Shown here piece by piece: positions 3,399 to 25,940 of a stretch of 29,530 bases of DNA. The first letter of the stretch is position 1, and each line of letters begins with the position of its first letter. Made by a program: the position numbers and the translations under genes. Source of the stretch: a virus. The DNA lies in IMG/VR virus record IMGVR_UViG_3300037845_000068, positions 1 through 29,530 of that record; one strand, given 5' to 3'. The notes under the pieces are model-generated. The model ran no database searches. It had not been told where the DNA came from and saw only the letters and a list, made by a program, of their open reading frames with translations.

Positions 3399-3851
3399 TT
3401 ACTGACCCAACACGATGGCGCTGGAAGCCAGGTTTGCCGAGCCGATGACCGTGCCGCCTGCAGAGGTGCTGCCTTTGAAGCGGTAGAGCATCGCCGTCAC
3501 CGAGAGAATCGTCGAGTTGGCGATCGTCCTGGCAATGGCCAGTTCCACGTATCGCTGAGTCGAAAGCGGCCGGTAGAACTCGACCAGGCTCACCAGGTTG
3601 CTGGTTGCGCCTCCTGCGTCCGTGAAGGTGCTGGCCGTGCCGACGTTAGCCATGCCCGTCGTGCTGTTGGCCGTGTTCGCCTTGAGCTGCATTGAAACCA
3701 CGGCTGTCGAGGTGTTGGTGCCCCACTGCACGACGAACAGCAGGTCGTCCCAGCCGCCCATATCGACGATGCTGGTCGTGATCGTGGTCACGCCGGCCGC
3801 CGAGGTCTGGCTGACGCTCTGAACCGAGGTCTGGTAAAGAAGGTTCGACAT
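3399..3851 (-). CDS. Candidate capsid decoration protein
   Basis: The protein has 150 aa and starts at the ATG at 3851, with a good AAGGAG sequence 8 bases upstream. It follows the capsid gene directly, with a 57-base gap holding a small GC hairpin. It is Thr/Ser/Ala-rich and beta-like, with a central WDDLLFVVQWG strand (about residues 34-44) and an alternating QRYVELAIARTIANSTILSVTAMLYRF region (about 103-129). Small beta proteins encoded right behind the major capsid gene often decorate the shell. The call is from position and composition only; I see no specific family signature. Confidence 0.65.
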   Translation of the reverse strand: MSNLLYQTSVQSVSQTSAAGVTTITTSIVDMGGWDDLLFVVQWGTNTSTAVVSMQLKANTANSTTGMANVGTASTFTDAGGATSNLVSLVEFYRPLSTQRYVELAIARTIANSTILSVTAMLYRFKGSTSAGGTVIGSANLASSAIVLGQ

Positions 3852-3908: not shown

Positions 3909-5375
3909 TTAGCTGTGGAGTTGCAACCGGCTGAAGGCCTGCGCCAAAACCGGCATGGCATCGGTCTCCTTGCGGAGGATGAAGCCGATTTGCGCCGTGG
4001 CGGCGTAGAGCTCGGCCAGGCGCTGAATCCTCATCGCCAGGGCGTCGGCGATGTGGTAGAACTGGAAATCGCCCAGGATGCCCACGTAAAGCCCGGCTGT
4101 GTACGTGTTGGGGGCGTACTCCGACATGATGTAGGGCTTGCCGTACACCGTGTCCGGGGCTCCCTGAACAAGCTGGGCGCCGCCGGTCACCCCCGGCTGC
4201 CAGAGGTACTGGCCGATGCCGTCCTTGAGCTGCCGGATGTTCTGCACCGTCGTGCGGTGGAAGATCCAGCGCAGGTTCGGGCTCATCTGGTACTGCTGCT
4301 TCAGGTTGTAGAAGCAGGAAATCAAGGCGTCCGCGGCGATGGCCGTGGTCGTGTTGGCTCCAACGATGTCGCGGCTGGTGTCGATGCCCATGTTGCTGGC
4401 CGTGAACACGCCCAAGGGCTGGTCCACGCCGATGCCGGTCATAAAGGCTGCTTCTTCGACGACAGCCACCTTGTAGGCCAGACGGTCGCGGATCAGTTGC
4501 TCGACGTTCATGCTGCTGGCGCGGAGCAACTTTTCGCTCACACGAATCAATTTGGCCACCGGATGAGGCCGCAACTCGCGCTTGCCGAACGTCATGGCCG
4601 TATCTTCGACGCCCGTGGCGATTTCCGCCGTCCAGTTGGGGTCGGACACGTCGGCTTCCAAGCTGGGCATACCCAGCGATTCGGCGTTCTCGCAGGTGTG
4701 CACGCGCGACAAGGCCCGGATGAACACCAAGTTGTTCACGAAAATGATGAGTTCGTTCATGAACTGCTGCGGGGCCACCATGAAGCCGCCCTGCGTGTCG
4801 AAGTCCATTTGCAAGGCGCGGAGTTCCTCGTTCTTGAACTCCCGCGTGCCGCCAACCTGGTAGCGTGCGAAGTTGCTGCGGTACTCTTCCGAGCCGTAGT
4901 ACGACTGGCGGTCCTTGGCCGAGTAGAATTGCCGCTTGCCGGTCGAGTCCTCGAACCATTTCTGCTTGTTGCGTAGCTCTTCGGGCGTGCCGGCCGCCGG
5001 GTTCAATGGATCGGGCGCGATCCAGCGGGATTCGAGTCCGCCGTTGGCCTTATCATCGCGCGCGAAAGCCGCCGCCATGCGGGCCTGTCGGCTGGCGTCG
5101 TCGGCGCCGGTCAGGTTGCCGGACTTCTTGCGGACCTCGACTTCATCGTCGATTTCGGCGAGCCGGCCGCGGACCTCGACGCCTTCCGCGTTCTTATAGC
5201 CGCAGATGCGGTCAAACTCGGTGCGCTCGTCGTGGTTGAGCCGCGTGGCTTCGAGCTTCTCGTTCTTGGAGCGGGTTTCGGCCGCGCCCCAGATGTCGCG
5301 CGTCCGCTTGACGAGGTTGTTCCGCTCGTGGAAAAGCTCGGCAGGGGTCAGTTCGCTAACCGGCTTGTCGGCCAT
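3909..5375 (-). CDS. Major capsid protein (HK97 fold)
   Basis: The protein has 488 aa. Residues 1 to about 100 are highly charged and helical (LFHERNNLVKRTRDIWG, then RLAEIDDEVEVRKK), which fits the scaffolding delta domain that the prohead protease removes in HK97-type phages. The core begins near residue 193 with DTQGGFMVAPQQF, the conserved entry to the HK97 fold. It continues with a predicted spine helix near EQLIRDRLAYKVAVVEEAAF, a GVDQPLGVF loop and an A-domain region with NLRWIFHRTTVQNIR and VYGKPYIMSEYAP, ending in a strand that holds IGFILRKETDAM. The order after portal and protease supports the call. Its ATG lies at the base of a hairpin that also hides its GGAG, so expression may be controlled in the leader. 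Confidence 0.95.
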   Translation of the reverse strand: MADKPVSELTPAELFHERNNLVKRTRDIWGAAETRSKNEKLEATRLNHDERTEFDRICGYKNAEGVEVRGRLAEIDDEVEVRKKSGNLTGADDASRQARMAAAFARDDKANGGLESRWIAPDPLNPAAGTPEELRNKQKWFEDSTGKRQFYSAKDRQSYYGSEEYRSNFARYQVGGTREFKNEELRALQMDFDTQGGFMVAPQQFMNELIIFVNNLVFIRALSRVHTCENAESLGMPSLEADVSDPNWTAEIATGVEDTAMTFGKRELRPHPVAKLIRVSEKLLRASSMNVEQLIRDRLAYKVAVVEEAAFMTGIGVDQPLGVFTASNMGIDTSRDIVGANTTTAIAADALISCFYNLKQQYQMSPNLRWIFHRTTVQNIRQLKDGIGQYLWQPGVTGGAQLVQGAPDTVYGKPYIMSEYAPNTYTAGLYVGILGDFQFYHIADALAMRIQRLAELYAATAQIGFILRKETDAMPVLAQAFSRLQLHS

Positions 5376-5418
5376 CGTTGGCGTCTCCGTGGCTTGCTTT
5401 GCCGGAGGTCTGCCAACG
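5376..5418 (-). promoter_or_regulatory. SD-sequestering hairpin before the capsid start codon
   Basis: On the minus strand, CGTTGGC (5418-5412) pairs perfectly with GCCAACG (5382-5376), which ends immediately before the capsid ATG. Inside it, CTCCG (5407-5403) pairs with CGGAG (5389-5385). The GGAG of the inner arm is the only good Shine-Dalgarno for the capsid gene, 9 bases from the ATG, so folding would hide it. The pairing is read directly from the sequence; the regulatory effect is inferred. Confidence 0.6.
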
Positions 5419-5478
5419 AAAAAGGAAGGCGCGAACCACCGGCAGATTGTTTGAATCTGCGAGTAGTCCGCGCCTTCC
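5419..5478 (-). terminator. Intrinsic-terminator-like hairpin in the capsid leader
   Basis: On the minus strand GGAAGGCGCG (5478-5469) and CGCGCCTTCC (5433-5424) form a perfect 10-bp stem followed by five T residues (5423-5419). The 35-base loop itself holds a 6-bp hairpin, CAGATT (5459-5454) with AATCTG (5448-5443). The T-run is only on the minus-strand side, so it is directional. It sits 43 bases before the capsid gene and downstream of the candidate promoter, so it is either a leaky terminator of the upstream operon or an attenuator. Confidence 0.7.
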
Positions 5479-5506
5479 CTGGAAGTGCGCTTCGTACTGT
5501 TTCCAG
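5479..5506 (-). other. Upstream stem-loop of the capsid leader
   Basis: CTGGAA (5506-5501) and TTCCAG (5484-5479) form a 6-bp stem directly abutting the terminator-like stem. Because TTCCAG runs straight into GGAAGG of the next hairpin, the two could compete for pairing, a layout typical of switching leaders. A further small hairpin, GCCC/GGGC, lies at 5519-5530. Confidence 0.45.
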
Positions 5507-5566
5507 CCGCCGCGTTACGCCCGCTTGGGCCTGGCGCGTGGCCGGGAGGTTTGATTGATTACGAGA

Positions 5567-5595
5567 AGTCTAGAACGGATTTTTGTTTTGTGCAA
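5567..5595 (-). promoter_or_regulatory. Candidate sigma70-type promoter for the capsid transcript
   Basis: On the minus strand TTGCAC (5595-5590) and TAGACT (5572-5567) are separated by exactly 17 bases in an AT-rich patch that is unusual for this window. Each hexamer matches four of six consensus positions. It lies just after the stop of the 75-aa gene (5614). It would start a leader of about 185 bases that holds the hairpins before the capsid gene. Whether the host sigma factor uses this consensus is assumed. Confidence 0.45.
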
Positions 5596-5613: not shown

Positions 5614-5841
5614 TTAACTCACGCCTCCGGTCCTTCTTCTCCTGCCGGCCCCCAACTCGCTCTCGCTGACAAGGCCCAGCGTCACCGCCTGCTCGCGGTA
5701 GATTCCGGCCCGCTTCTTCCGCTCGGTGTCAGTCCAGCGAGATTGAATCCTCTTGCACGCGGCGGCTATCTCGTCCGGCATCGGCATGTACGGCGCGCCG
5801 GCGTCGTCGTTGTCGTAGCCGGCGATGTCGTCGATGGTCAC
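5614..5841 (-). CDS. Small conserved hypothetical protein
   Basis: The protein has 75 aa with a GTG start whose GTGA overlaps the stop of the preceding gene. It begins MTIDDIAGYDNDDAGAPYMP, then has a helix with EIAAACKRIQSRWTDTERKKR (about residues 24-44), and a basic GRRRR tail. I have seen short proteins of this shape (a 'DIA.YD' start, then 'EI.AAC..IQ..W...ER..R') mainly in Planctomycetota genomes, which is the best host hint here, although from memory only. The function is unknown. It is the last gene before the capsid leader and promoter. Confidence 0.75.
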   Translation of the reverse strand: MTIDDIAGYDNDDAGAPYMPMPDEIAAACKRIQSRWTDTERKKRAGIYREQAVTLGLVSESELGAGRRRRTGGVS

Positions 5842-7321: not shown

Positions 7322-9043
7322 TCATGTCACATCGGCACTAAAACCAAAAACAGACGCAGCTTGACCGCCTGAGTATTGGGCAAGTTGCATCTTGTCGCGA
7401 CGCGATTGATCGGCGGCAACGTCGTCGAGAGCGATCAACTCGTCGTCGCTCACGCCAGTGGGCATTTCCATCGCCGTCAACCATGAAGAACGCTTCAAGA
7501 AGAACGTATCCTCGCACGGAGAATGGGAAACCCCGTCGCCGCAGTCGATCCACTCTTCAACGAGACAAATCAAATCGTCCTTGCTGCCGGTCAGCGTCAG
7601 CCCGGCAAAACTCAAAGATTCGGCCACCTGCAAAATACATCCGTGGCAGTGGCGGAACATCAGCCGTCCTGGGTGCGCGTCGAAAAAGCAGACGAACGTG
7701 CCTGGACTGAAAGCGGCCGCAGTCGTATCGCTGCGCGTTTCCTCGGGCGCAGCAAGCGGCGAACCATTCGCATCGCACCAAGCGAATTTACCATCCGGCC
7801 CACGCTTCTTGAAACCGCTTCCCTCACGCTGCACGCCGTCTGCAAGCGGCGCCAACCCCATCAGCCGCTCGCCTTCCTCGACCGCCGCCAGGCTGCGCAG
7901 CGCCACGCCGACGTGCGCCGTCTTGTAGGCCGGCTCCATCGTCGGACTCACGTCGGTCAACTGCGCGCGGTGGATCTCGCGGACACGACCCAGGCCGTCC
8001 CTGGTCCACTTCTCGCCGTTGTCGTGGTGCACGCGCATGCCGAACGACAGGCCCTTGAAATCGCCGCGCTCGATCGACTCGATCAGCCCGGCCCCCTCGG
8101 GGTGCTTCTCGCCGGGCTCAATCTCCACGTCCAGGCCGTTGGGCTTGTGCTCCAAGCGCAGCGTGCCGGCCGAGCGGGTGCCCAGCGGGATCTTGGACCC
8201 CGCCATGCCATGCTCGTACTTGGCCACCACTTCGCCGCCGTTGTCCAAGTGCTCCTTGAAGGCGTGCGGCATCAATTTCTCGCGGAAGCCGCCCATCGGC
8301 TCCGACAGCGCGTTGTAGGGGATGTGCCCTACGATCACCTTGGTCTGGCCCTTGCGGCGGATCTCGACCGGGATGAAGCGGCGGTCCTCGTCGACGCCGG
8401 CCAGTTCCGCGCTGCGCCCTTCATCGACCTTGATGCCGTGCTTCTTGGCCGCGGCATGGATCTTGGCCAGCACGACGGCCTTTTTGTCCTCGGGGATGCC
8501 CTCGGTCTGATTGAAACGTGCCAGCGCATTCCGGCAGTGGGACTCATCCATCAGAGGCAACTTCCACGTCTCGGGGTCGTTCGCGTCTCCCACCCAAGCG
8601 AAGTCCTTGGTGTGAAGATGCTGGCCGGCGACTTCCTTCGTTTTGGGTTTGCTCCGCATCTCGCCGAACCCCTTGCCGCATGAGCGGCACATATAGGAGT
8701 AGTTCTCCTGGGTTGCGCCCACGGCCTCGTTGGTCTCCTGCTTCGGCATGGAATAGGTGTCGGCACTCATGCAGTAGGTGCAGACCGGCCCCGGCTCCAT
8801 GTCCATCGCCAATCCCTTGGCGCGTTCCTGCTCAAGCTTCAAGGCCGCCGCGCGTTCGACCTCCTCCCGAAGCTGCTTGCGCTCCTGTTCGAGCTTGAGC
8901 GCGGCCCGCTCGACCTCCTCGTCGAGCAGCTTCTGCTTGCGCTCCTGCTCCAACTTAAGCCCGCGTTCGACTTCCTCCCTGAGCCGGGCGCGCTCGACTT
9001 CTTCTTTCAATGGCGCGTTCGGGCTGGCGGTGGTCAGTGACAT
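7322..9043 (-). CDS. Prohead protease (HK97 family) with coiled coil, zinc ribbon and C-terminal extension
   Basis: The protein has 573 aa and starts at the ATG at 9043 with AGGAG 8 bases upstream. Four parts can be seen. Residues 11-78 are a charged coiled coil made of three near-copies of EEVERAALKLEQERKQ. Residues 88-122 form a zinc ribbon (C88-x2-C91, C119-x2-C122). Residues 145-205 carry FAWVGD...LMDESHCRNALARF, a helical region often seen before proteases of Mu-like phages. Residues about 222-395 are the protease: GHIPYNALSEPMGGFREKL, the catalytic His in YEHG (H278), the catalytic Ser in GLSFGM (S333) and a QLTDVSP strand. Residues about 400-573 are an unexplained Cys-rich extension. 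HK97-type proteases run to about 200 aa, so this one is greatly enlarged. It matures the capsid protein; the coiled coil may act as scaffold. Confidence 0.9.
   Translation of the reverse strand: MSLTTASPNAPLKEEVERARLREEVERGLKLEQERKQKLLDEEVERAALKLEQERKQLREEVERAAALKLEQERAKGLAMDMEPGPVCTYCMSADTYSMPKQETNEAVGATQENYSYMCRSCGKGFGEMRSKPKTKEVAGQHLHTKDFAWVGDANDPETWKLPLMDESHCRNALARFNQTEGIPEDKKAVVLAKIHAAAKKHGIKVDEGRSAELAGVDEDRRFIPVEIRRKGQTKVIVGHIPYNALSEPMGGFREKLMPHAFKEHLDNGGEVVAKYEHGMAGSKIPLGTRSAGTLRLEHKPNGLDVEIEPGEKHPEGAGLIESIERGDFKGLSFGMRVHHDNGEKWTRDGLGRVREIHRAQLTDVSPTMEPAYKTAHVGVALRSLAAVEEGERLMGLAPLADGVQREGSGFKKRGPDGKFAWCDANGSPLAAPEETRSDTTAAAFSPGTFVCFFDAHPGRLMFRHCHGCILQVAESLSFAGLTLTGSKDDLICLVEEWIDCGDGVSHSPCEDTFFLKRSSWLTAMEMPTGVSDDELIALDDVAADQSRRDKMQLAQYSGGQAASVFGFSADVT
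8810..8977 (-). repeat. Tandem coiled-coil repeat in the protease gene
   Basis: Three units of 18-19 codons encode EEVERGLKLEQERKQKLLD, EEVERAALKLEQERKQLR and EEVERAAALKLEQERAKGL. Both the DNA and the protein are similar between units, which suggests recent expansion by slippage or recombination. Confidence 0.85.
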
Positions 9044-11082: not shown

Positions 11083-11183
11083 CGGTGTCTCCACCACTGG
11101 AAGGCCATCGTAATCAGCGATCCGATCACTGCGCCAATCGCCGAGAACATCGCCGCCCGCCAGCCGTCGTTGTGCTTGGTCAC
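11079..11183 (-). CDS. 34-aa single-pass membrane peptide
   Basis: A GTG-started 34-codon frame overlaps the portal stop as GTGA and the next start as ATGA, so it fits exactly between two genes. It reads MTKHNDGWRAAMFSAIGAVI and then GSLITMAFQWWRHR. Residues about 9-27 form one transmembrane helix, with a basic C-terminus. The double coupling argues that it is translated. Phage peptides of this size can be holin-like or anchor proteins, but no function can be read. Confidence 0.6.
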   Translation of the reverse strand: MTKHNDGWRAAMFSAIGAVIGSLITMAFQWWRHR

Positions 11184-13873
11184 GCCAGTTCCCTTTCCGC
11201 TTTCTTCAGCTCTTTCTTGGCCCACGACTTGGTCATGCCTTCAACATCGGCCTTGTCGAACTTCCCGCGCAGACCGAACTCGATTTTACTGGCCAGGCGA
11301 TGCGCTGGCAAATAGTCGGCCCCCGCCGCCATGTCGGTTTCTTCGGTGAATTCGTGAACCGTCGTGGTGGCCTGCTCGTCCTCGGGCAGCGTCGATTCGA
11401 CGATGATCGTGCCCTTGTTCACCCAAGGGTACTTTTGATGATTCCCGCCTTCCACAAAAGTCGTGTCGATTCTGTCCCTAATGATGTCGCCATCGACCAG
11501 CCGGACCTTGATCTTTGGTTCGGCGATCGTGCAGTATTCGCCCACGAACGCATCATCCGGGATCGTGTCGAGCTTGCCTTCGCCGCCATCCATCACGCTC
11601 CGCATCTTGGCGTCGTGCCGCTCGGCGAAGTCAGCGGCATCGTCCACGCTGTCGCCGCGCGCCAGGGCTTTTAGCATCGCCAGCGCCGAGGAAGCCGCAA
11701 TTGTCTGCTCGTCATCATCCAGCTCGTCGCTGACCCAGCCCTCATTATCGCCGATGATCGGAAATTGCGCCTTCACGCCGAAATCCGAAAAATCCTGCGC
11801 CTCGACGCTGCTGTCGCGCACCGCCTCGGCATCTACAAGGTACGTCGTGAACTCGCCGAACTTCCCGATCAACCGTTTGTCAAACGGGTCGTCCTTCTTG
11901 CTCCGCAACTCCAACGGCGGCACTCTGGCCCCGTCCTCCTGCCAGCGCTTGGCGATGGCTTCCACCCGGTCGGTGAACGTTGTCGGGTCGCCATCCGAAG
12001 CGTCGAGCAACTCCAACCGTCGGCTGTCGCAATGCTGACGGGTCACGTCCCAGGCGAAGGCGGCCGGCGTCACCGTCTCGTTGGCGTTGATGAGCGCCAG
12101 GTGCGCCTCGGCCGCCGGTTCCAGCGCCGAACGCATCTCCGTTTCGTGCTTGGCGTAGAATGTGTCGAGCCAATTCAGGAACTCGTTGGGCTTCTTCGCG
12201 GCACGGCGGGCGCTCTCGACCTCGCGAAAGCTCATGCGTCCCATCGCATCGCCCCAGATTGAGCGCAGGGCGTCCTTCATGCGGTTGTTCGGCTGGTTGC
12301 CACGATTAGCCGGCGTTCGGCGCGGCGGCTTTTTGGCCGGCTCGGCTGGTTTGCGGCCGTTGCCGTTCTGGCCGTCGAGCCCGGTCGCCGATTGGCCGTT
12401 CGGTTTCGGCAGTTGAGCAGTGGTTTGCGGTTTCACTTCGATTGGGTCCACCATCGCGTTAATGTCTGCTTCTTCCAACATGCGGAAGCTGGTCCGCAAG
12501 AGCACCTTGGCGGTTGGCTTGGGCAGGATGCCGTTGCCGACTTGCGCCAGGATAGCCGTGATGGCCTGGATCTGCTGGCCTTGCAGAGCGGTGTCCTTGT
12601 GGTCGCGGTCGACGTCGGCCCCTTCCTTGAACTCGTCGATGGCCTGCTTCTGTTTCAGGTTCGCAACCGCAGCCGTGGTCATGTTGAACGGAAACCAAAA
12701 GTTGTCCAGTTCCTTGCCGCCGGGGTTGTCCCCCTCCGACACGCGGGCTTCATTCGGATTGCGGTAGCCCGCCATGATTGCTTCGCGGTTGCTCTTTGCG
12801 CGGGCGGTCGCGTCCATCACTCGCGCGGCACGGCGGTCAAAACGGAAATAGAAGCCAGCTTTGCATTCCTCCTCGCTCAGAAGCCAGTAGCGCAAGCGGT
12901 TTTCCCAGCGGCAAAGCCACGGGTCTAGGCACGTTTCAAGGTACTCGAGGAATTGGTGCTCGATGTTCGAAAACGTCGCGTGGTCCAGCGCCCCTACCAT
13001 GTGTTGTGGAATTCCGAACCAGGTCGCGATTTCCTCTTTTGTAAATTTCCTGGTCCCTAAAAATTGCGCCTGGTCGAAGGGCATCGTGATCGCTTGGAAC
13101 TTGTAGCCCGCCCGCAGAATGCCGAACTTGTTCGCATTGGCCGGCGATTGGTGGATTTTGTTCCACTGCTCACGAAAATGGGCTTCGGCCTGGTCGCTCA
13201 TCTTGCCATCATAGGTGAACACTCCCCTCGGCACCGCGCCGTTGCCGAACAAGGCCGCGCCGGTTTGCTCCGTGGCCAATGCGATTCCCAGGCACTCCCG
13301 CGCCATTCTGACGGGGGAATAGCCGACGATTCCGTCTGGCGACGGGCCGATCACCGTGAACAACTTGGCCATGGGCACGGTCTCGGCATCGCCACCATCG
13401 TAGTTCGTCACCTTGTAAACGATGTGCCTGTTGTGACGCTGCGGCTCTACGCGCGGCGTGGCGATCGACCACATGCTGTCGAGCTCGCCGCGGCGCCAAA
13501 CGGGTTCGGCGTAGCCCGAGCCGTATACCAATGTGTTGCGCTGGGTCTGCTCCTTGAACGTCATGCCGTCCATCTCGTCGTTGGCCTTGACGTTCAGCAC
13601 GTACTCGGCGTTGTGGCCATCCTGGCGCTCGTGGCGGTCGCCCTGTTGCCGGTAGACGTGCACCGGCATCTTGCCAAGGGACGACGCGATCAAATCCACG
13701 CAGCGGTAGACCGTGCCGATGGTCATCGCCGTGTAGCTCGACACCAGCACGCCGGCCGTCGAGGGGCTGCCGGTAAAATACTGGGCCACCACGTCGTTTT
13801 GCGGGTGGCCCAGCGTTTGCTTGGTTGCGCGGGTCTCTTCGGCGCGGGCGGGGCCGAGAAGGGTACTCAGCAT
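11180..13873 (-). CDS. Portal protein (HK97 type) with long C-terminal extension
   Basis: The protein has 897 aa, starting at the ATG at 13873, which overlaps the preceding gene by 7 bases. Residues about 40-430 are an HK97-family portal: TIGTVYRCVDLIASSLGKMP, VGYSPVRMARECLGIALATE, the QWNKIHQSPANANKFGILRAG region, and FGIPQHMVGALDHATFSNIE followed by FLEYLETCLDPWL. A Pro/Gln/Gly-rich linker (about 480-530) leads to a helical region (about 530-660) and then a domain ending near residue 870. Usual portals of this family have about 400-550 aa, so about 350-400 residues are extra. Near the end a motif with HEFTEE (840-845) and DYLPAHRLASKIE (853-865) looks like a short zincin-like region. The portal forms the ring through which terminase pumps DNA. 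Confidence 0.93.
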   Translation of the reverse strand: MLSTLLGPARAEETRATKQTLGHPQNDVVAQYFTGSPSTAGVLVSSYTAMTIGTVYRCVDLIASSLGKMPVHVYRQQGDRHERQDGHNAEYVLNVKANDEMDGMTFKEQTQRNTLVYGSGYAEPVWRRGELDSMWSIATPRVEPQRHNRHIVYKVTNYDGGDAETVPMAKLFTVIGPSPDGIVGYSPVRMARECLGIALATEQTGAALFGNGAVPRGVFTYDGKMSDQAEAHFREQWNKIHQSPANANKFGILRAGYKFQAITMPFDQAQFLGTRKFTKEEIATWFGIPQHMVGALDHATFSNIEHQFLEYLETCLDPWLCRWENRLRYWLLSEEECKAGFYFRFDRRAARVMDATARAKSNREAIMAGYRNPNEARVSEGDNPGGKELDNFWFPFNMTTAAVANLKQKQAIDEFKEGADVDRDHKDTALQGQQIQAITAILAQVGNGILPKPTAKVLLRTSFRMLEEADINAMVDPIEVKPQTTAQLPKPNGQSATGLDGQNGNGRKPAEPAKKPPRRTPANRGNQPNNRMKDALRSIWGDAMGRMSFREVESARRAAKKPNEFLNWLDTFYAKHETEMRSALEPAAEAHLALINANETVTPAAFAWDVTRQHCDSRRLELLDASDGDPTTFTDRVEAIAKRWQEDGARVPPLELRSKKDDPFDKRLIGKFGEFTTYLVDAEAVRDSSVEAQDFSDFGVKAQFPIIGDNEGWVSDELDDDEQTIAASSALAMLKALARGDSVDDAADFAERHDAKMRSVMDGGEGKLDTIPDDAFVGEYCTIAEPKIKVRLVDGDIIRDRIDTTFVEGGNHQKYPWVNKGTIIVESTLPEDEQATTTVHEFTEETDMAAGADYLPAHRLASKIEFGLRGKFDKADVEGMTKSWAKKELKKAERELA

Positions 13874-25746: not shown

Positions 25747-25868
25747 GGTCGATTGTCCTCATTGGCAGTCCCTTTCCGCTCGGGCAATTCGACCACGGGT
25801 TAGTTATGGCCCAGGCAGGCGGCGTGGCAAACCGCCTTGTTGGTGGCGATCCTAGCCGGGCTTTTCAG

Positions 25869-25940
25869 TGGCAGCGGCCGGAATCGAACCGGCGAAAAAT
25901 GGGGTATGGACCCATTCGGGTTGCCAGCAACCACGCTGCT
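25869..25940 (-). tRNA. tRNA-like gene, anticodon CAT
   Basis: On the minus strand AGCAGCG and CGCTGCC can form a 7-bp acceptor stem with one mismatch (A1-C72), followed by the discriminator A. The T-arm is perfect: GCCGG, TTCGATT, CCGGC. The anticodon arm is ATGGG, TCCATAC, CCCAT, giving CAT. The D-arm is unusual: GTT/AAC or GTTG/CAAC with a short loop, then extra bases. Position 33 is C instead of the near-universal T. CCA is not encoded. Three G-C pairs at the anticodon stem and the 1-72 mismatch resemble initiator tRNAs. It could be a working phage Met-type tRNA or a decayed one. Confidence 0.6.

Follow-up and report, generated by a model that had tools for sequence, protein, structure and literature searches.

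The major capsid protein gene of a tailed phage is preceded by a real, conserved leader that joins a promoter, a terminator-like hairpin (P2) and a second hairpin (P3) in which the capsid Shine-Dalgarno (SD) sequence is paired. The leader lies in a 29.5-kb fragment of a phage genome taken from a virus record (hereafter the window, 29,530 nucleotides). It is apparently undescribed so far, and a search of the open-access literature found no capsid-gene leader or terminator of this kind. A regulatory role is likely, and on balance the leader probably acts in cis and is off by default, a conditional terminator and an SD latch together gating capsid expression. Tailed phages have to make their major capsid protein at the right time and in the right proportion to protease and portal, and to our knowledge few RNA-level controls of the major capsid gene have been described. 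A unit of promoter, terminator and SD latch before the capsid genes of distant phages would provide a concrete, testable control point, and a defined RNA element, possibly a new RNA family, with which phage transcription data could be reread.

Anatomy of the Capsid Leader

The head genes of the window lie on the minus strand in the order terminase, portal, prohead protease, small genes, capsid, and more head and tail genes. The capsid gene (3909-5375, minus strand) encodes a 488 aa protein of the HK97 fold (Pfam PF05065, E = 1e-47; PHROG 10, E = 4e-55), and 238 non-coding bases separate it from a small ORF ending at 5614. The initial annotation of this DNA had proposed a structured leader here, and folding of the minus strand from 5600 to 5370 bears this out: the 231-nt leader is far more stable than its shuffles (z = -5.86), none of 200 being as good. 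A tRNA/tmRNA search of the leader found none. Rfam 15 gave no match in the window, and the relatives and the leader alone gave chance-level matches only.

P2 (5422-5480, minus strand) is made up of 19 bp, a C.C mismatch and 7 bp closed by a 5-nt loop, counting G-U pairs. At -43.0 kcal/mol it ranks first in stability among 5,894 60-nt windows taken from the two strands, ahead of a next best of -35.0, and its own antisense is weaker (-34.8). A U5 tract (5419-5423, minus strand) follows directly, so that P2 and T5 show the anatomy of an intrinsic terminator, a G+C-rich hairpin and then a U tract. The perfect 10-bp stem with T5 described initially is thus present, but the length of the helix had been understated. 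The 5' and 3' arms of P2 are hereafter called strands 1 and 2.

P3 (5376-5418, minus strand) pairs the SD sequence GGAG (5388-5385), 9 nt before the ATG, with CCUCC (5408-5404) and ends one base before the ATG at 5375, confirming the earlier reading of a hairpin that stops at the start codon and holds the SD. In the folded leader of the window the unpaired probability of the SD is ~0. The anti-SD strand, strand 3 (ACCUCCGGC, 5401-5409, minus strand), is common to P3 and to an alternative helix with strand 2; strand 4 carries the SD.

The promoter of the window is weak. Its -35-like hexamer TTGCAC (5590-5595, minus strand) matches the consensus at 3/6 positions and its -10-like hexamer TAGACT (5567-5572, minus strand), across a 17-nt spacer, at 4/6, with an expected transcript start near 5560. 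The hexamers noted at the outset are therefore present but poor, and a consensus promoter scan of the window did not pick up the pair. The promoter is credible only because relatives carry much better ones at the same place, with TTGACA at the position of the -35. TTGACA with a spaced -10-like hexamer occurs 150-310 nt before the capsid start in 10 of 11 members recognized by P2 alone, whereas only 1 of 103 loci taken to be leaderless has this combination. This single exception may be locus L067, whose inspection shows both promoter and terminator. The distance from the expected start to P2 is 79 nt in the window and 73-95 nt in 19 of the 20 members measured.

Between promoter and P2 lies a 5' domain of ~80 nt (P1, 5481-5560, minus strand) that is structured but variable in sequence. 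Its mean folding z over 14 members is -1.2, and shared 7-mers in the members' 5' domains show no excess over shuffles. A 6-bp stem, CTGGAA/TTCCAG (5506-5501 with 5484-5479), had been proposed in this domain. The pairing is possible but is absent from the minimum-energy fold, in which a larger 5' hairpin (~5544-5503) takes up the CTGGAA sequence, and no support for it was found in relatives. No leader peptide is present in the window, and among 20 members a short ORF with an SD ending before P2 occurs only in L223 and L284; leader-peptide attenuation, which would need a conserved translated peptide, is rejected for these members. A metabolite riboswitch is unlikely, as there is no highly conserved aptamer and the 5' domain varies between members. 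A CCGCTGANGCG motif forms small hairpins twice per leader in L007 (5318-5369) and L017 (5787-5839), and CUC-NNNN-GAG mini-hairpins resembling these recur in other members, although the repeated motif is weak.

Distribution Among Phages

The capsid and terminase sequences of the window have no close relatives in the viral contig collection, and an exact search for the hairpin pattern gave no matches. Among plasmids and cultured phages, the nearest capsid is that of Streptomyces phage Chymera (~48% identity). Chymera has no such capsid leader, only a short G+C-rich hairpin (L002, 2727-2756) that lies between the protease and capsid genes without a T tract. An alignment of the window and Chymera capsids, followed by wider capsid alignments, was used to gather ~280 loci, some contigs being counted twice.

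In ~25 diverse phage loci the layout is kept: a sigma70 promoter, a variable leader of ~80 nt, P2, usually a U tract, P3 and the start codon. These members are the window (WIN), L005, L006/L010, L007, L017, L030, L033, L039, L043, L067, L078, L081, L085, L102, L104, L112, L143, L148, L209, L221, L223, L225, L255, L273 and L284. In all of them the layout stands directly before the capsid gene, and in most members with readable upstream genes the protease gene directly precedes the promoter. From the end of P2 to the start codon there are 31-52 nt in 16 of 20 members and 59-69 in the remainder. The element is absent from ~100 of 125 non-redundant capsid loci, where the capsid mostly follows the protease directly. 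The expectation that relatives keeping the capsid gene would also keep the paired arms thus fails for most loci but holds for the other ~25, where promoter and P2 are retained, in most cases together with P3, and compensatory changes are plentiful. The U tract is absent or poor in L030, L033, L209, L273 and L284, so P2 may not terminate in all members; P3 is missing in L104 and L143.

Position sets these hairpins apart. Terminator-like hairpins of -30 kcal or below occur within the 200 nt before the capsid gene in 11 of 119 loci, whereas other 200-nt sense bins hold 0-3. A covariance model built from four P2 hairpins (R1) was run against ~1.6 Mb of capsid loci, and its non-seed sense matches with E < 0.02 fell in capsid leaders only (L039, L102, L017, L043, L104, L143, L221, L223 and L225). 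Over 16 member contigs, clear matches (E < 0.01) were likewise confined to the capsid leader. Across the whole viral collection, a search with a DNA pattern yielded two members already known and one new one (L143), its other matches lying within coding genes. L143 was initially picked out by this DNA pattern alone, and its leader again precedes a capsid-like ORF. Against 545 bacterial genomes R1 gave six matches, all ordinary terminators (~30 bits) or coding hairpins and none near a capsid gene. Since R1 matches ordinary terminators, P2 alone is an unspecific probe, and the case for a single family is made by position, promoter, spacing and P3 rather than by P2 on its own.

Common descent of all members is likely, and the most divergent of them may have converged on a useful layout. 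The capsid tree does not support a single origin for the leader, at least three changes being forced by well-supported branches of an otherwise poorly resolved tree, so the patchy distribution on this tree points to exchange or repeated loss. Plain terminator-like hairpins with T tracts and no obvious promoter also occur before the capsid gene (L004, L008/L014, L061, L072/L075, L073, L076, L182 and L196), where they lie between the protease and capsid genes. They could represent the same control in a simpler form.

Covariation of the Paired Strands

In the four-sequence seed, two-sided changes affect 8 of 20 P2 pairs, compared with 2.9 in shuffles. The model-fitted alignment raises this to 15 of 19 pairs, although the fit itself biases this figure, to which reverse-strand matches also contribute. 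Because of the variable 5' domain, whole leaders could not be aligned automatically, and the statistics were therefore based on an alignment-free comparison, in which each 5' arm was paired with its own 3' arm and with the 3' arms of other members (22 members, 50,000 permutations). Own arms pair better than foreign arms in P2 (-39.8 vs. -23.7) and P3 (-16.4 vs. -13.3), and also in the alternative helix 2:3, between the 3' arm of P2 and the 5' arm of P3 (-20.2 vs. -16.3), each at the permutation floor of p = 2e-5. The control pairings 1:3, 1:4 and 2:4 are not self-specific (p = 0.88, 0.63, and 0.15, respectively). The results for P3 and 2:3 are not circular, because members were chosen on P2 and promoter only. 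P3 is also stronger than its counterpart in leaderless capsid genes (Mann-Whitney p = 3e-5). Sense P2 is more stable than antisense in 18 of 22 members (p = 0.0035), a bias suggesting that selection acts on the RNA of this strand rather than on a DNA palindrome.

The 2:3 helix of the window was located by an inverted-repeat search: the top of strand 2 (GCCGGUGGU, 5435-5443, minus strand) pairs with strand 3 at 8 of 9 positions, and the pairing is self-specific in the 22 members. The switching arms suggested previously, TTCCAG/GGAAGG, are not supported as such, and it is this pairing of the P2 3' arm with the P3 5' arm that has comparative support. Folding of the window without strand 1 gives a 2:3 helix of -21.3 as long as strand 4 has not yet been transcribed; with the segment otherwise complete, 2:3 reaches -28.1 against -29.7 for P3, i.e., it is 1.6 kcal weaker. 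In silico removal of strand 1 clearly favors 2:3 in ~8 of 22 members and shifts mean SD accessibility over the 22 from 0.27 to 0.31. Equilibrium folds of the 22 members show no uniform switch, nor is SD release by 2:3 clearly seen in them. Taken as sequence patterns, the three self-specific pairings suggest a hypothetical ladder of strands, 1:2, 2:3 and 3:4.

A Model for Capsid Gene Control

In these loci a terminator-like hairpin stands directly before the gene for an abundant protein, so what is its role? With promoter, terminator and SD-pairing hairpin directly before one gene, control of that gene in cis is the simplest explanation. The promoter inside the head operon would start a transcript of ~140-150 nt that ends by default at P2 and its U tract. 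In any RNA that reads through, whether from this promoter or one upstream, P3 would fold the capsid SD away and translation would be held back too, so that capsid synthesis would wait for an event that defeats P2. P2 helices range from -25 to -51 kcal, which a simple RNA switch could not outcompete, and an active factor would therefore be needed. The most likely agent would be an antitermination factor of the phage, or some other factor that covers the 5' arm of P2. If strand 1 is taken up in this way, 2:3 pairing could form, which would prevent termination and compete with P3 for the anti-SD; both the switch and the factor are speculative. Strong default repression of an abundant protein would be odd unless release is efficient. 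The attenuator or autoregulated leader envisaged by the initial annotation is thus matched by an unusual, conserved and covarying element in a subset of ~25 loci, but any regulation is deduced from its form. A further proposal is tentative and rather doubtful: that these leaders constitute an undescribed class of phage regulatory RNA, in which one strand ladder would couple termination to masking of the capsid SD and one event would open both levels.

At the lambdoid promoter PR', the intrinsic terminator tR' lies within ~200 nt and blocks the late genes until polymerase is made terminator-resistant by Q (PMC6606751). The capsid leader resembles this arrangement in placing promoter and terminator in one short leader, although the promoter of the window is weak. 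It differs in being internal to the head operon, where it immediately precedes the capsid gene, and in running on into a hairpin that pairs the SD. The put RNA of HK022, a structured leader of ~70 nt, follows closely on a phage promoter and precedes terminators (PMC9378689), similar in size and place to the 5' domain described here. However, put RNAs share sequence and structure, whereas this domain cannot be aligned from one member to the next. Nor do the members, with their variable 5' domains, show the pair of sequence-conserved stem-loops seen in put. By its anatomy the leader would fit Q- or put-type antitermination.

The overlapping strands recall the trp attenuator, with 1:2 as the terminator, 2:3 as the alternative helix and 3:4 as a hairpin further downstream, all three of them self-specific here. 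Unlike in trp, the terminator is 1:2 and not 3:4, no leader peptide is conserved, and the next gene's SD serves as strand 4. The coat-protein operator of MS2-type RNA phages likewise hides the ribosome site of a viral gene in a hairpin at its start, but here the phage is a tailed one with dsDNA, and the gene downstream of the putative operator is the capsid gene itself.

Alternative Explanations

The same unit could be a free-standing small RNA gene of 140-150 nt, trans-acting or protein-binding, for which the place beside the capsid gene is merely convenient. Its own consensus promoter and terminator and its constant length agree with this, and the terminated product would be abundant. The body of such an RNA is, however, the least conserved part of the element and holds no shared single-stranded seed, the distance to the capsid start is nearly fixed, the element runs on into the covarying, SD-pairing P3, and clear model matches are found only before the capsid gene; we regard a small RNA gene as unlikely. 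The geometry of P2 raises another reading. RNase III prefers long, nearly perfect duplexes, and P2 is of this type, so that P2 and P3 could serve as a site for RNase III or as hairpins shielding the 5' end of a capsid mRNA boosted by the internal promoter, termination at the U tract being partial or incidental. Several members lack the U tract, and a phage needs more capsid protein than protease or portal. Against such a processing or stability element, which seems distinctly unlikely to us, most members carry a U-rich tract right after P2, and P3, by pairing the SD with a covarying anti-SD, should lower and not raise translation.

It is very improbable that the leader is an ordinary operon boundary, where the portal-protease transcript ends at a terminator, late antiterminated polymerase reads on into the capsid genes and the rest is a compositional accident. 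A plain terminator without promoter is indeed seen in L004, L072, L076, L182 and L196, and R1 also matches ordinary host terminators at ~30 bits, but a boundary leaves unexplained why a promoter lies 73-95 nt ahead of P2, why P3 covaries and why the 2:3 pairing is self-specific.

Other Features of the Loci

Several further features were observed. The prohead protease ORF of the window (7322-9043, minus strand) is long, at 573 aa, with a DUF6582 match N-terminal to the Peptidase_S78 domain, and the portal ORF (11180-13873, minus strand) encodes 897 aa, of which the portal domain spans residues 54-381 only, leaving the C-terminal half with no assigned domain. A tRNA-Met (CAT) gene is predicted at 25868-25940 on the minus strand, shared with the head genes. 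In L005, a peptide encoded just upstream of the leader promoter (~3459-3655) resembles a helix-turn-helix DNA-binding segment and could be a local regulator.
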